Source: Deltaproteobacteria bacterium (GTDB taxonomy: Bacteria; Desulfobacterota; DSM-4660; Desulfatiglandales; HGW-15). Taken from it: a stretch of DNA of 53,327 nt. Positions 40,999 through 47,837 of the stretch are shown one piece after another; position 1 is the stretch's first letter; each line of letters starts with the position of its first letter. The notes under the pieces were generated by a model. The model did no database searches. It saw only the letters and a list, made by a program, of their open reading frames with translations, and was not told the DNA's origin. The position numbers were made by a program, and so were the translations under genes. Where the stretch lies: assembly GCA_016930835.1 (NCBI GenBank), contig JAFGGA010000149.1:1-53327 (forward strand), given 5' to 3'.

Positions 40999-41356
40999 CC
41001 TTTGCCCCGCTCTCAGGCTTCTACTTTCTGATCCCCCTTGTCGGTCAGAGCTGACAGCCCCTGAATCCATTATTGAAGATTTCATGACCGGCACGGTTGG
41101 AAACCACGATTTTTCATTGAAGCCCATATATCGGGTATGGTAGATGTTGTGCTTTAACAGCGTTTCCGGATCATTGGTGTCTAAAATAGATTTCATTCGT
41201 CGCAGCGATGGGGGCGGGTAAAAGGCAATGTCGGCTTTTGGGCGGAGGATTTGAAAAGAGATCCCCATACCCCCCCGACAGCCATTTTTGGACAAGCATG
41301 TTTTCGGATATCAAAATCATATCATTCATTCATCATCAACACACGGGAGGAGAATA
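40999..41356. other. Gap with repeat R1
   Basis: No supported gene. The minus-strand frame across this gap shows no family signature and runs into the repeat. The second half is repeat R1 copy 2 (41193-41296). The last 20 bp hold GGGAGGAG, the ribosome-binding site of the selenoprotein gene. Confidence 0.45.
41193..41296. repeat. Dispersed repeat R1, copy 2
   Basis: It aligns with 1494-1596 through GCGATGGGGGCGGG, GTCGGCTTTTGGGCGG, TTGAAAAGAGATCCCC and TTTTTGGACAAG. It ends 60 bp before the selenoprotein start codon. Confidence 0.6.
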
Positions 41357-42946
41357 TTGAAGAATTTGACGACAATAGTGCAACTCGGAAAATCAGGAGG
41401 GGACGCGGAGATCACCATTGATGTGCTGAACCCCAAGGGTGTGATCGACAAGGTCGAATGCCTGGGGCTTTCCCCCCGGATAGACGGCCTTGAGGGAAAG
41501 AAAATCGCTTTTATGCACAATAATAAGGCGGGATCCATCAACCTGTACAAGGTGCTGGAAGAATTGATCCGGCAGAGATATCCGTTAGCAAAAATTGTTC
41601 ACGGCTATGAGACGGGGCCGATCAATCCTCCTAAAGACCCCGATATGTACAAGAAGGCCGCCGCCGCGTGTGATGCCTTTGTCTTTGCCACGGGCGATTG
41701 AGGAACCTGCACATGGTGGGGTGCCCACCATACCATGCAGATGGAAAAACTCGGCATACCCGGCCTGTTATTCGTCAGCTCCAATTTTCTCCCGGATGCC
41801 AAATCCGCGGCATCGGACTATGCCATGCCGGGGATCCGGATGGTCGTGCTACCCTCTGAAAAATGGTACCGGTTGCGGAGGTCGGTGGAAGAGGTCCGTC
41901 CCATTGTTGAGGCCGCGTTTGATTCGGTCATCCATGCCCTGACGCACCCTCTTGGGGAGGAAGAGGTCCATCCTCCGCAAAGGGAAAAGCTCGATCTTCC
42001 GCCGTTCAAGATTTCGGGCAAAGGATGGTTGGGAGCGCTTGAAAATTTCAATGAGATCTTTCTTGAAAACCAGATGAGCGACGGTCTTCCCCTTGTGCCC
42101 CCGACCCGTGAGGCGGTGGATAGGATGCTGCGAGGCACGAAGCGTTCACCCGACGAGGTTATCGGCAAGATCCCCATGAAATTCGGTATCGCCACCATTG
42201 AAAAGATCGCCATCAATGCGGTTATGGCCGGGGCCAAGCCGGAGTACTTTCCGGTGATTATCGCGGCCATGGAGGCTTTCTGCGAAGGGGACTTCTTCCA
42301 CATGATGGGGTCATCAGGTGGTTTTACCCTGATCATCATGGTGAACGGGCCCATTGCGAAAAAGATCAATATGAATTCGGGAATCGGTTTCTTAGGTGAT
42401 TGCTGGCGTGCCAACAGCACCATCGGTCGCTCCATCCGACTGGCCACCCGGAATATCGGCCATACCTGGCCGGCCGTGAATGATATGGCATTGGTGGGAA
42501 GACCTTCCCCTCATATCTTCTATACCTTTGCCGAAAATGAAGAGATGAGCCCCTGGGAGCCTTTCCACGTGAGCCTGGGTTATCAGAAAGAAGACAGCAC
42601 CGTCACCGTCACCAAGGTCGGATCTTATTCGGAAACCGGCGCGACCGGTCAAAAGATAGGGGGAGGGGCTGTGGCCACATGGAATGAGCAGTCGATCCTG
42701 GACGGTATGGCGAAATATACCACCAGCAGCGAGCGCGGTTATTACGTGTTTTTCCACCCCAACGCAGCCCAGGGCATGGAAACGGTGGGCCTCAAGAGCC
42801 GCAAACAGGTGCAGGAATGGTTCGCGGAAAGGACAGGGGGATCACCGGATAACATTTCGGTTATTGTCGCGGGCGGCGAACCCGGTTATTCGCTAATTTG
42901 GGCCTATGATCTGAGGGCGCATGTGACCAAAAAGATCGAGGTGTAG
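41357..42946 (+). CDS. UGSC-family selenoprotein with in-frame UGA (Sec115)
   Basis: A 529-residue protein whose reading frame is interrupted by a single TGA at 41699-41701 and continues in the same frame to 42946. The local sequence GD-U-GTCTWW matches the UGSC motif after which the family is named (GD-U-GSCT/S-W), with Thr for Ser. The first 110 residues form a small domain with KIAFMHNNKAGS and a YETGP segment. After Sec the protein runs into a large C-terminal domain with SDGLPLVPPTREAV, PMKFGIATIEKIAINAVMAGAKPEYFPV and a GSSGGF stretch. A SECIS hairpin lies right after the UGA. The start is TTG 41357 with GGGAGGAG upstream. A UxxC pair suggests thiol/selenol redox chemistry; the substrate is not known. 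Automatic annotation would split it in two. Confidence 0.93.
41707..41740 (+). promoter_or_regulatory. Bacterial SECIS hairpin
   Basis: CTGCA (41707-41711) pairs with TGCAG (41736-41740). Above an asymmetric internal loop, ATGGTGGG (41713-41720) pairs with CCCACCAT (41724-41731) around the loop GTG. The apical loop lies about 20 nt after the UGA and carries a leading G, as expected for SelB-dependent bacterial SECIS elements. The stem lies wholly within the coding sequence. Confidence 0.85.
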
Positions 42947-42984: not shown

Positions 42985-43022
42985 AATGGGTTACTCAACA
43001 ATGTTGGGTAGCCCATTTTTTT
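42985..43022 (+). terminator. Rho-independent terminator after the selenoprotein gene
   Basis: AATGGGTTAC (42985-42994) pairs with GTAGCCCATT (43008-43017) with one G-U pair; an inner CAACA/TGTTG extends the stem. Seven T residues follow (43016-43022). Position and shape fit a strong intrinsic terminator. Confidence 0.85.
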
Positions 43023-43237: not shown

Positions 43238-43849
43238 ATGGCCGCGGAAAGGAAAAAAAGCATACAAAAAAAGGAGGCGATTCTGGATGCAGCCATGCAG
43301 CTATTCCTTGAAAAGGGGTATAATGCCACTTCGACGAACGACGTTTGCAGGAAGGCGTACATCAACAAACCGTCCCTCTACAACTTTTTTGAAAACAAAA
43401 GGAATCTCTTTTTCGCTTGCCATATAAAAAGCATCAATTCACAACTGTTACCTTACCTGGAAAGGGCTTCCTCCGTCTCCGATCCGGAAGAACGGCTCGT
43501 TTTTATGGTCCGTGAGTTCACCAGGATGATTTGTGAAAGCCCTGAATTGAAGGTCCTGATCCATGAAACCATGTCTATGACGGATGACTATTTTTGGGAG
43601 ATCAGATCAATATGGAAAAAACACTTTGAGTTATTGAAAAGTACCATCTCGGAACTTCGTGATAAAGGATTGATCAAAACATCGCTCTCACCTTCAAGGG
43701 CGGCTCTGTTCCTGATCGGAATGATCACCTGGATTACATTCTGGTTTGATTACACGCGGGCAGATGAGATAGACGCTATAGCCGGATCTGCGGTGGAGTT
43801 CGTCTTTAAAGGGTTATCTTACAAGAGAAAAAAGCTGAATGTCGTATGA
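43238..43849 (+). CDS. TetR-family transcriptional regulator
   Basis: A 203-residue regulator. The N-terminal helix-turn-helix domain (about residues 8-55) contains ILDAAMQLFLEKGYNATSTNDV and KPSLYNFFENKRNLF, standard TetR landmarks; the C-terminal helical domain is the ligand pocket. The start at 43238 follows GGAG; upstream in-frame codons overlap the promoter. The stop codon overlaps the ATG of the next gene (ATGA), so regulator and MoaD-like protein are translationally coupled. It probably controls the molybdenum hydroxylase operon that follows; the ligand is unknown. Confidence 0.9.
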   Translation: MAAERKKSIQKKEAILDAAMQLFLEKGYNATSTNDVCRKAYINKPSLYNFFENKRNLFFACHIKSINSQLLPYLERASSVSDPEERLVFMVREFTRMICESPELKVLIHETMSMTDDYFWEIRSIWKKHFELLKSTISELRDKGLIKTSLSPSRAALFLIGMITWITFWFDYTRADEIDAIAGSAVEFVFKGLSYKRKKLNVV

Positions 43850-44139
43850 ATGAAAACCGGGCAAAAAGCATAAAGATAAAAAGTTGTTTTGCCATTTCCG
43901 GGCAGAATTCCGAGGATTTGGTTCTTCCGGAAAAAGTGAAGACAGTCCGGGATTTGTTGGCCTTTATAGGAGAGAAAATCGATTACAGTTTCCTGGACCC
44001 TCAGAACGATGGGATCGAAGATGACCTGGAGATCATTTTAAACCAAAAAGAGATATGGTTTTATTCAGAGGCCCTTAAGACGGAACTAAGGGATGGGGAT
44101 ATGGTGGAAATCTATCTGCTTCCCCTCGGGGGCGGATAG
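43846..44139 (+). CDS. MoaD/ThiS-like ubiquitin-fold protein
   Basis: A 97-residue beta-grasp protein ending in LPLGGG; the C-terminal Gly-Gly is the site of adenylation and thiocarboxylation in MoaD and ThiS sulfur carriers. DGDMVEIYLLP directly before it is the usual MoaD ending. The position between a TetR gene and molybdenum hydroxylase genes suggests a dedicated carrier for molybdopterin synthesis or cofactor sulfuration. A MoaE or MoeB partner is not in the window. Its start overlaps the TetR stop by 4 bp. Confidence 0.82.
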   Translation: MNENRAKSIKIKSCFAISGQNSEDLVLPEKVKTVRDLLAFIGEKIDYSFLDPQNDGIEDDLEIILNQKEIWFYSEALKTELRDGDMVEIYLLPLGGG

Positions 44140-44165
44140 GGTATTCAAATCAGGAGGAAAGAAAG

Positions 44166-45047
44166 ATGGTTACATTTTATCGAAGACTGCCGAAGATGGG
44201 TTATGTGAAGCCGGGAAGTCTGGAAGAGGCGCTTGAGCTTCTGGAGAAGAACCCGAATGGCCGGTACAGGGTCTATGCCGGAGGGACGGATGTGATCCCC
44301 AAATTGAAAGGAAGGGTGATTCAATCCCCCGAGATCCTGGTTGATCTGAAAGGGGTTTCGGATCTGGATCATATCGATTTTGATGAGCAGAAGGGGCTTT
44401 ATATCGGTGCCCTTGCAACGGTCCGCTCGGTGGAGACATCGCCCGTCATTAAGGAGAGATACCCGATCCTTTCTCAGGCCGCGGGGAGCATTGCTTCCAT
44501 CCAAGTCAGAAACAGGGGGACCATTACAGGCAACATCTGCAATGCCGTGCCGTCGGCGGATTCGGCACCTGCGCTTCTCTGCCTCGATGCGAGAGTATTA
44601 TTATATAGCAAAAACGGCGGCGAACGGACCGTGGATATCACTGATTTTTTTAAAGGGCCGGGGCTGACGGTTTTACAACCCAATGAAATACTCAGGGAAA
44701 TAAATATTTCCGCGAGCCCTGAAAACAGCCGTAGCGTGTATATCAAACTTTCACCGAGGAGCCGCATGGATCTGGCGGTTGTTGGGGTTGGTGTCCTTTT
44801 GACCAAGACCAACGGGACTTTTCGTAATGTCAGGATCGGCCTAGGGGCCGTGGCGCCGACGCCGATAAGGGCGTTGAAGGCCGAGGCCATGCTTGAAGGG
44901 TCTGAAGTGAATGATGACCTCATCATAAATGCGGCAAGGACGGCATCCGAAGAGTCCAGACCCATAGACGATCATCGGGCATCGGCGGAATACAGGAAGA
45001 TGATGGTGGAGGTGCTTGTGAAGCGCGCGATTCATCAATGTCTCTAA
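44166..45047 (+). CDS. Molybdenum hydroxylase FAD subunit (CoxM-like)
   Basis: A 293-residue FAD-binding subunit of the xanthine dehydrogenase family. The flavin-binding motif YAGGTDVIPKLKG lies near residue 38 and the second motif TITGNICNAVPSADSAP near residue 120; the C-terminal CO-dehydrogenase flavoprotein domain covers about 180-290. It passes electrons from the [2Fe-2S] subunit to NAD+ or another acceptor. AGGAGGAAAG precedes the ATG. Gene order FAD, iron-sulfur, molybdenum subunit is standard for CoxMSL-type enzymes. Confidence 0.93.
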   Translation: MVTFYRRLPKMGYVKPGSLEEALELLEKNPNGRYRVYAGGTDVIPKLKGRVIQSPEILVDLKGVSDLDHIDFDEQKGLYIGALATVRSVETSPVIKERYPILSQAAGSIASIQVRNRGTITGNICNAVPSADSAPALLCLDARVLLYSKNGGERTVDITDFFKGPGLTVLQPNEILREINISASPENSRSVYIKLSPRSRMDLAVVGVGVLLTKTNGTFRNVRIGLGAVAPTPIRALKAEAMLEGSEVNDDLIINAARTASEESRPIDDHRASAEYRKMMVEVLVKRAIHQCL

Positions 45048-45069: not shown

Positions 45070-45549
45070 ATGGCCATGAAAAAGATCAAGTTTGTATTGA
45101 ACGGTGAAACCTGCGAATGGGAAGTAAAACCCTGGAGGACGCTTTTGGAAATGCTACGAGAGGACTTTCAATTGACAGGGACCAAGGAAGGATGTGGTGA
45201 AGGGGAGTGTGGATCATGCACCGTGATCATGGGGGGGAAAACAGTCAACAGCTGTCTTGTCCCTGCGGTTGAGGCGGACGGTCAGGAGATTCTCACCATT
45301 GAGGGACTGGCCCATGGAGAAAACCTGCACCCTGTCCAGGAGGCGTTTGTGGAAAAGGCCGGGATGCAGTGCGGTTTCTGTACCCCGGGCATGATCATGT
45401 CCGCCAAGGCGCTCCTGGATGAGAATCCCGAGCCCAGCGAAAATGAGATCCGGGAAGGCATCGCAGGCAATTTCTGCCGCTGTACAGGATACACGAAGAT
45501 TTTCGAATCCATACAGGCAGCGGCAGAAGCTATGAAAGGGGGGAAATAG
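45070..45549 (+). CDS. Molybdenum hydroxylase [2Fe-2S] subunit (CoxS-like)
   Basis: A 159-residue two-cluster ferredoxin subunit. The N-terminal plant-type cluster is ligated by the cysteines of [10 protein letters not shown] near residue 40 and a fourth Cys (NSCLV) near residue 62; the C-terminal cluster by QCGFCTPGM near residue 102 and FCRCTGY near residue 138. It links the molybdenum centre to FAD. It ends 2 bp before the ATG of the molybdenum subunit gene, so the two are probably translated together. Confidence 0.95.
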
Positions 45550-45551
45550 GC

Positions 45552-47837
45552 ATGGAAGAATACTCTGTTATAGGGAAAAGGATTCCCCGTGTAGACGGGA
45601 GAGTGAAGGTGACGGGAGAGGCCCGGTATGCGGCCGATTATTCGATGCCGGGGATGCTTTGGTGCAAGATGCTCAGAAGTCCCTATCCCCATGCCAGAAT
45701 AGTGAGTATCGATACCAGCCGTGCGGAGAAGCTGCCCGGGGTCAAAGGGGTGCTTACGGGCAAGGATTTTAACGGCTGGACATGGGGCTGGATGCCGAAA
45801 ACCCGGGATGAACCGCCCCTGGCGGTGGATAAGGTCAGGTACCTGGCCGAGGCGGTTGCTGCGGTTGCCGCAATTGATGAAGATACCGCGGAAGAGGCCA
45901 CCGAGCTGATTAAGGTTGAATATGAAGAGCTGCCCGGGGTTTTTGATCCTGAAGAGGCCATGAAGGAGGGAGCGCCCCGGGTGCATGATTACGTGAAAAA
46001 CAATCTGAGCTGGGACTTCCATATGGATTTCGGGGATGTGGATAAGGGATTTGGCGAAGCGGATCTGGTTCGTGAAGATCGTTTTGAGACCGGCAGGGTT
46101 ATCACCGGCTATCTGGAGCCCCCCGCTGCGGTCGCCCTTTGGGACTCCGGCGGTATCACGATCTGGGCCGCAAAGCAGAGCCCCTATTTTGTCTACCGTC
46201 ATCTGGCCGCATGCTTTAACCTCCCGCTGAACAAGGTCAGGATTATCCAACCTTTTATCGGTGCGGGTTTCGGCGGCACCAAAAACGATTCCCTGGCGGG
46301 AGATTTCTGTTCCGTTCTTTTCTCAAAGAGGACCGGAAGACCTGTCAAATTTGTGTACAACATGCATGAGGTGCTGATGACCTGCCGGCGCAGGCACAAT
46401 ATGATCATCCATAACAAGATGGGCATGAAAAAGGACGGGATCATCACCGCCATGCAGAGCAAGGTGATAGCAGACGGGGGGGCCTATACGGCCATCGGAC
46501 CTTTGACCATGTATCTGACAGGAAGCATCAGCACGCTGCCCTATAAGCTTCCCCATTTCAGGCACGATGCCTATCGTATTTTTACGAATAACCCCATCGG
46601 AGCGGCCATGCGAGGGCATGGCGTCACCCATACCCGGTTCGCCGCTGAAATACAGATGGAGATGATGGCTGAGGAACTGGGAATCGATCCCATAGAGGTG
46701 AGGCTGAAAAATGCCATCACGGCTCCCTATGAAACCATCAACAAGGTGACGGTTCATACCTGCGGGCTCAAAGAAGGGCTGAAAACCCTGTCCGAAAATC
46801 CCAAATGGAAAAAGAGATCCGGAGGCAGCCCCCCCGAAGGACCTCTCTCCCACGGTGTGGGTATTTCGGGAACCGCTTACCTGGGAGGGGCTAGACAGCG
46901 GGGGCACCAGTCGTGCGGGGCCGTCGTCCGGTTGTGTGAGGACGGTACCATTGATTATCTGACGGGTGCCACGGACTGTGGCCAGGGTTCGGATACCGTC
47001 CTGGTACAGATTGTGGCCGAGGAACTGGGACTTGGTGTAGAGGATGTGGATATCAAAAGGGTAGACACGGCGGTCACCCCCTGTGACGCCGGGAGCTATG
47101 GGAGCCGGGTAACGGTCCTGGCTGGAGGGGCTGCCCGTAACGCAGCCCGGGACGTCAAGAGACAGCTTGCCGAGGTGGCGGCAAGGAATTGGGAGGTAGA
47201 CCCTGGAGATATTATCTTTAAAGACCAGAGGGTTTACGTAAAGGGGGAACCTGAAAAAGCCATGCCTTTTAGAAAGCTGGCCCAGGTTGCATGTTACGCA
47301 GGTTCCGGTGCAGTGATTATCGGAAGGGGTTACTCTCAATACGGCATAGAAGAACTTGATTTTGACAAGGGGATCGGAAATGCGGGCACATCCTATAGCT
47401 TCACATCCCAGTTGACCGAAGTGGATGTCGATCTGGAGACGGGATTTGTCAAATGCACGGATATGGTGATCGCTCATGACTGCGGAAGGCCCCTGAATCC
47501 GATCAATGTGGAGGCCCAGAACCAGGGCGGGGCCATACAGGGCATGGGCCAGGCCATGTATGAAAGATTCGCCATGGATCTTGGGAAGACCCTCAACGCC
47601 AATCTTGCGGATTATAAGATGCCTCTTTCTACAGATGTACCAAATATCGAGCTTATTGATATCATAACGGATGACCCAAATGGCCCCTACGGGGCCAAAG
47701 AGGCATCGGAAGGATCAACTGTAAGTTCACCGCCGTCCGTGGTGAGCGCCATCCACGATGCGACCGGTATCTGGTTCAAGGAACAGCCTGTGACACCGGA
47801 AAAAATAGTCATGGCGTTGAAAAAGAAAAGGGAATAA
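45552..47837 (+). CDS. Molybdenum hydroxylase catalytic subunit (xanthine dehydrogenase / CoxL family)
   Basis: A 761-residue molybdopterin-binding subunit. The N-terminal a/b hammerhead domain begins [22 protein letters not shown]. Further blocks include [14 protein letters not shown] near residue 235, [15 protein letters not shown] near residue 354, [13 protein letters not shown] near residue 474 and [16 protein letters not shown] near residue 714, where the Glu takes the place of the general base in the GxGE motif of xanthine dehydrogenase. The enzyme hydroxylates a heteroaromatic or activated C-H with water. Substrate not recognisable; nicotinate, purine and aryl-CoA enzymes share this form. 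The MFS carrier gene follows after 135 bp. Confidence 0.93.

Follow-up and report, generated by a model that had tools for sequence, protein, structure and literature searches.

A UGSC-family selenoprotein fused to a large partner domain in a deltaproteobacterial genome, and its predicted kinship with the Sec domain of GrdB

The thioredoxin system is the reductant of the glycine/sarcosine/betaine reductase pathway, in which several protein B types serve glycine, sarcosine, and betaine. A GrdB-like protein, FarB, acts in fluoroacetate dehalorespiration, for which attack by selenocysteine (Sec) on a carboxylate that is not an amino acid has been proposed (PMC10838667). UGSC proteins are among the commonest selenoproteins of aquatic metagenomes, with 255 in the Global Ocean Sampling (GOS) survey; the 2008 paper on that survey (PMC2398784) describes the fusion of a UGSC domain to a conserved domain without a name (UGSC/Unknown_1) and assumes a thioredoxin (Trx)-like redox protein and fold for UGSC. 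A 2026 review places UGSC among the families with largely uncharacterized functions (PMC13188914).

Here, we analyzed a gene within a 53,327-nucleotide stretch of deltaproteobacterial DNA (the window, contig JAFGGA010000149.1), the features of which are collected in Table 1. The original prediction of a UGSC selenoprotein had been drawn from two open frames in the same frame separated by one TGA, a GD-U-GTC context resembling the UGSC motif, and an 8-bp stem with a GTG loop past the UGA, and each of these elements was borne out. The TGA at 41699–41701 is the lone internal stop in the frame, and reading it as Sec yields a 529-residue protein with U115 in the GD-U-GTC context and inside a Pfam UGSC match. 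The same frames could be read as two proteins, a short UGSC peptide that terminates at the TGA and a separate C-terminal protein starting from ATG 41735, and some relatives do encode the UGSC domain and the C-domain separately. In these split forms, however, the UGSC gene still contains the TGA, and it is preceded by the C-domain gene in L102 and in same-order relatives (the order is reversed in L101); in the protein studied here, residues 116–196, which lie past the TGA, complete the UGSC domain. We consider the two-protein reading exceedingly improbable.

Table 1. Features of the UGSC/C-domain fusion gene and its surroundings (window coordinates)
Feature	Position	Strand	Remarks
Shine-Dalgarno-like GGAGGAG ahead of the TTG start	41346–41352	+	sequence
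UGSC/C-domain fusion selenoprotein gene	41357–42946	+	529 aa with Sec115; TTG start, TAG stop
N-terminal UGSC domain, residues 18–210	41408–41986	+	PF24696 match 23–196; GrdB profile match
UGA codon (Sec115), motif U-G-T-C with Cys118	41699–41701	+	TGA there in 59/75 homologs
Bacterial SECIS stem-loop, 8 bp, GTG loop, 11 nt past the UGA	41713–41731	+	
C-terminal partner domain, residues 229–529	42041–42943	+	no Pfam model, no clear PDB fold
Intrinsic terminator-like hairpin 3' of the gene	42985–43017	+	15 pairs, T-rich tail

In the predicted SECIS element, positions 41713–41720 pair with 41724–41731 (8 of 8 pairs) around the loop at 41721–41723, and its minimum free energy of −18.0 kcal/mol compares with a mean of −13.1 kcal/mol for synonymous recodings, 2.7% of which are as stable. 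Canonical pairs in a fixed 8-bp stem (nucleotides 12–19 with 23–30 past the UGA) were also counted across 73 Sec genes, with 500 synonymous recodings under local codon use as the null. Of 584 possible pairs, the Sec genes formed 415, where 309 ± 9 were expected and none of the 500 recodings exceeded 335, and a non-redundant set of 35 sequences formed 177 of 280 (143 ± 6 expected). There was no excess in 13 homologs without Sec (61 of 104, with 60 ± 3 expected). Because the excess is found only in Sec genes, selection acts on the stem as RNA and is restricted to genes that use Sec. The count takes the stem position of the window's gene and the hairpin is placed differently in some Sec homologs, so the pair count is conservative.

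The original prediction had pointed to selA, selB, selC, and selD as the genes to look for, and a search of the genome (4.70 Mb in 224 contigs, 95.5% complete) found selA (616 bits), selB (404 bits), tRNA-Sec (71.8 bits), and selD (374.5 bits). The selD gene (L021, G000:C103:21087-22016) carries one in-frame TGA, so SelD of this genome is probably itself a selenoprotein. An apparent second tRNA-Sec/SelB pair on contig C49 was set aside as probably EF-Tu and a 77-nt tRNA, judged by size and score. Since the genome encodes SelA, SelB, SelD, and tRNA-Sec and a selected SECIS element follows the UGA, position 115 is almost certainly selenocysteine.

Relatives are encoded by at least 583 loci in other genomes of one genome collection, and in hundreds of loci the conserved frame continues past the TGA. 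Among 75 parsed homologs, the residue at the Sec site is Sec (TGA) in 59, Cys in 4, Ser in 3, Asn in 2, Met in 2, and Thr and Ala in 1 each, with the other 3 being stand-alone C-domains; the first two counts agree with the Sec or Cys that had been expected at this site. The motifs of 63 other Sec homologs are UGSC (34), UGGC (11), USTC (9), UGAC (4), UGTS (2), and UGTC, UNVC, and USGC (1 each). The Thr in place of Ser that the original prediction had remarked on is a genuine variant, with UGTC itself in 1 of these 63, and UGTC is also the motif of a GrdB found in a host genome of UGSC relatives. Cys118 is present in 61 of the 63. Several subfamilies (L009, L010, L038, L039, and L042–L044) have Ser or Asn in place of Sec and have also lost Cys118, with the whole protein still conserved. 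A second TGA in L055, L074, L100, and L107 was considered as another Sec site and rejected, as the positions are unrelated.

A further source of the TGA at codon 115 would be a sequencing error or a nonsense mutation in a pseudogene, given that the genome is a draft and that other copies show damage (the TAG of L010 and the shifted C terminus of L013, described below). Against this, the same TGA is found in nine other paralogs and in 59 of 75 foreign homologs, the SECIS stem is selected, and the full Sec machinery is present; with the same codon kept in genomes other than this one, a base that resequencing would remove is a very unlikely explanation, and we give an error or pseudogene next to no credence. 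The conserved TGA, the selected SECIS, and the Sec machinery together support the original claim of a selenoprotein.

Residues 23–196 match the Pfam UGSC model PF24696 (E = 5e-26, 92.2 bits, cut-off 25, profile positions 2–171 of 172), and the score against the NCBIfam equivalog NF041046 is 74.5 bits, under its cut-off of 125. Family membership is thus upheld by PF24696, with a score below the equivalog cut-off, and because one model is matched and the other cut-off is missed, these profile scores place the protein in a divergent fused branch of the UGSC family. All 62 fused homologs in alignment A2 match PF24696 and no other Pfam model recurs among them, so the C-domain of about 300 residues is unmodeled in Pfam.

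The large C-terminal domain that had been predicted as a fusion to the selenodomain is a partner module that occurs either fused or as a neighboring gene. Five same-order relatives encode the two domains in separate genes that lie side by side, the C-domain gene first, and in L101 (Dehalococcoidia) a DUF6282 gene lies between the two. Judged from these arrangements, the C-domain is the usual partner of the UGSC domain, fused or encoded nearby. Invariant residues of the C-domain are A285, VMAG 289–292, G331, E393, W400, and G408, with no Cys among them. Poribacteria contain stand-alone C-domains of about 315 aa (L094, L111, and L113), and no UGSC gene was noticed in the flanks examined.

An AF2 model of the whole protein (pLDDT 92.8) predicts a Rossmann-like N-domain, in which Sec115 lies at the start of helix 116–131 after strand 107–113, and a separate, mixed C-domain. 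When the N-domain was compared with solved structures, the top matches were Rossmann-like α/β proteins with middling Z scores (10.7 at best); the model predicts a Rossmann-like sheet for the UGSC domain, which makes the thioredoxin fold assumed in print less likely. The C-domain modeled alone (pLDDT 92.9) gave nothing convincing against solved structures, with a VIA-align Z of 5.5 at best. A class I fumarase fold came first in Foldseek for the C-domain, but the match is meaningless (TM 0.28, rmsd 16 Å). A PDB sequence search found no relative.

A search of the genome with the protein found 12 full or partial copies on eleven contigs, with an additional fragment at a contig end (L014). Ten of the 12 read through a TGA at the same site, with the motifs UGTC, UGSC, UGSF, USTC, UGVC, and UGIC, and in the other two (L009 and L010) the site holds neither Sec nor Cys. 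In the family tree, the 12 copies fall at scattered points among those of Acidobacteria, Chloroflexi, Proteobacteria, and others, and most are therefore old subfamilies and not the result of a recent local burst. Three same-family relatives have at least 16 copies each, in a search that scored 16 candidates, and copy numbers across four members of this bacterial family range from 12 to 16 or more per genome; one relative is the deltaproteobacterial MAG JAFGFY01. The Sec-less paralog L010 (G000:C68:34761-35948) has a TAG where others have Lys. Pyrrolysine was rejected as a reading of this codon, and because no pyrrolysyl-tRNA synthetase (PylS) was found above the cut-off, the TAG is probably a nonsense mutation or an assembly error. 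In L013 (G000:C129:4921-6111), the frame is lost in the C terminus shortly before the match ends, a probable frameshift, and tandem UGSC copies lie on the same contig. The MAG records of L065, L104, and L112 are titled Bordetella parapertussis or Klebsiella pneumoniae, names that look misassigned.

NCBIfam gave a weak betaine reductase match exactly at the Sec motif (E = 0.006). For profile comparison, GrdB sequences were taken from genomes of the UGSC family's hosts, one of which has STUGTCTRCG at the Sec site. The UGSC N-domain aligned with GrdB in hhalign at a probability of 94.6 (P = 7e-8), Sec on Sec, in a match confined to ∼90 columns around the motif. Reversed GrdB scored 6.9 and the best of 655 unrelated neighbor proteins 38.6, with the exception of a 161-aa piece beside the UGSC gene in L066 that scores 88.8 and may itself be UGSC. 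Comparison with a second, divergent GrdB gave a probability of 30, and that with two PrdB-like proteins was weak (probability 29). The 347-position GRDB model PF07355 was matched neither by the protein at E 1 nor by any of 65 family members at E 0.01. A GrdB search of this genome found no match, though the controls of that search gave none either. The profile comparison suggests that the Sec domains of UGSC and GrdB are likely homologous.

The C-domain proteins of L102 (Henriciella) and L138 (a same-order relative) carry an N-terminal CATC domain, which in L138 matches thioredoxins in the PDB (E = 5e-4); a Pfam search of this domain gave no match. The fusion gene has a thioredoxin-reductase-like gene at a distance of 23 bp in L040, 35 bp in L041, and 62 bp in L089. 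On a single strand, L054 has the gene order selA-selB-trxB-tctC-fusion and L106 the order trxB-fusion-fusion-selA-selB, with selD adjoining the latter. In L102, selA-selB lies upstream, and a SelD fusion is encoded downstream. Sec genes cluster with the UGSC/C-domain family in several lineages. The TrxB link is observed in relatives from other phyla, with none in this window. Together, the TrxB/Trx linkage and the CATC fusions support a thioredoxin-fed enzyme. Co-occurrence with selA across the order was discarded as evidence, being uninformative because most genomes in that order have selA.

In the window, the fusion gene lies between an enoyl-CoA hydratase gene and a TetR regulator with a 4-hydroxybenzoyl-CoA-reductase-like set; nearby are TRAP receptors, an acyl-CoA ligase, MmgE/PrpD, an aldehyde:ferredoxin oxidoreductase, and a ThDP enzyme. 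A small ThiS/MoaD-like open reading frame with no Pfam match, followed by a three-gene molybdenum hydroxylase set (43846–45047 and 45070–47837), is present, and the best match of this set is to 4-hydroxybenzoyl-CoA reductase alpha, under the equivalog cut-off. In this genome, 5 of 17 MmgE/PrpD genes are within 5 kb of a UGSC paralog, and neighbors that recur elsewhere are MmgE/PrpD, glycyl radical enzymes, family III CoA-transferases, and organic-acid or dipeptide uptake systems. Glycyl radical enzymes adjoin UGSC-family genes in this bacterial family at L026, L126, L128, L129, and L132; they score below every named equivalog cut-off, and one of them has a radical SAM protein alongside. A single conserved operon that would name the substrate was sought and rejected, since neighborhoods vary and none is constant, with TctC receptors, PrpD, glycyl radical enzymes, and 4-hydroxybenzoyl-CoA-reductase-like genes being recurrent but inconstant. 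By annotation, the theme of the neighborhoods is the catabolism of small organic acids.

Based on the above comparisons, the best explanation is that the fusion is a thioredoxin-fed, substrate-specific selenol reductase working like GrdB/PrdB, a proposal that we judge, as a whole, to be probable by a small degree. The substrate, a small organic acid, would be held by the C-domain at the tip of the Rossmann sheet, where the Sec115 selenolate would attack it and reductively cleave a polar bond. Cys118 would resolve the intermediate as a selenenyl sulfide, and electrons passing from NADPH through thioredoxin reductase to a thioredoxin-like CxxC protein would restore the selenol. The paralogs would be substrate-specific versions, comparable with the protein B types for glycine, sarcosine, and betaine. 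For reductive cleavage itself, we regard the sequence comparisons as leaving the case evenly balanced. The original prediction had assigned the family no function; the GrdB profile match and the TrxB/Trx linkage improve this to a model of a GrdB-like, thioredoxin-fed reductase.

The UxxC motif and the TrxB-like and thioredoxin-like partners would also suit a selenoprotein that acts in general redox or repair as a thiol/peroxide or disulfide oxidoreductase, cleaving no carbon substrate, in line with the Trx-like redox protein assumed in the 2008 paper (PMC2398784). This is unlikely given a predicted fold that is Rossmann-like and not Trx-like, a partner domain that is both large and conserved, the twelve divergent copies that this genome carries, catabolic and transport neighbors, and the rarity of Cys versions, though Cys is enough for many thiol oxidoreductases. 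Sec and Cys could instead bind a soft metal or metalloid ion or an organometallic compound, as some new selenoprotein families have been proposed to bind metals (PMC13188914). We hold metal binding to be a distinctly poor prospect, as metal-resistance genes are absent among the annotated neighbors, where catabolic and organic-acid uptake genes dominate, and the C-domain has no conserved ligand cluster.

If the reading as a selenol reductase is correct, the GrdB kinship, the recurrent partner, and the thioredoxin system would provide the first testable mechanism for the UGSC family and open a large unexplored set of probable Sec-dependent reductases, with 583 or more loci in a single genome collection. 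The great rarity of Cys in place of Sec makes the family well suited to asking which chemistry truly depends on selenium. More tentatively, UGSC and its partner may form a widespread, previously unrecognized group of selenoenzymes that resemble protein B and are fed by thioredoxin, present in anaerobes as well as in Alpha- and Betaproteobacteria, in which each paralog reductively cleaves a different carboxylate and the Sec machinery co-travels in several lineages. The literature searched contained nothing linking UGSC to GrdB and no description of split or thioredoxin-fused forms or of trxB/selAB islands, and other papers beyond it may exist.

Both the UGSC family and the fusion of its domain to an unnamed one are already known, and the protein described here is a well-supported, expanded variant. 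It resembles the family of PF24696/NF041046 in its domain match (23–196), Sec motif, and SECIS, and it differs in being fused to a partner of ∼300 aa and in having UGTC in place of UGSC. Like UGSC/Unknown_1, it joins a UGSC domain to an unnamed conserved domain, and Unknown_1 (PMC2398784) is likely the C-domain of this protein; a Trx-like fold was assumed there, whereas a Rossmann-like one is predicted here. With GrdB/GrdF/GrdH (PF07355), it shares the Sec-domain profile match, Sec on Sec, and the UGTCT motif, but the N-terminal half of GrdB is missing from it. GrdE has a pyruvoyl-forming Cys, whereas the UGSC partner domain has no invariant Cys for a pyruvoyl group. The D-proline reductase PrdB (TIGR04483) has the UxxC motif in common with UGSC, and its Sec attack with thiol resolution is the reaction type proposed for the fusion, with the weak profile match to PrdB-like proteins given above. 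FarB differs from the fusion in being a GrdB homolog with a GrdE-like partner, FarE, and parallels the mechanism proposed for UGSC as a GrdB relative proposed to act on a non-amino-acid carboxylate by Sec attack (PMC10838667).
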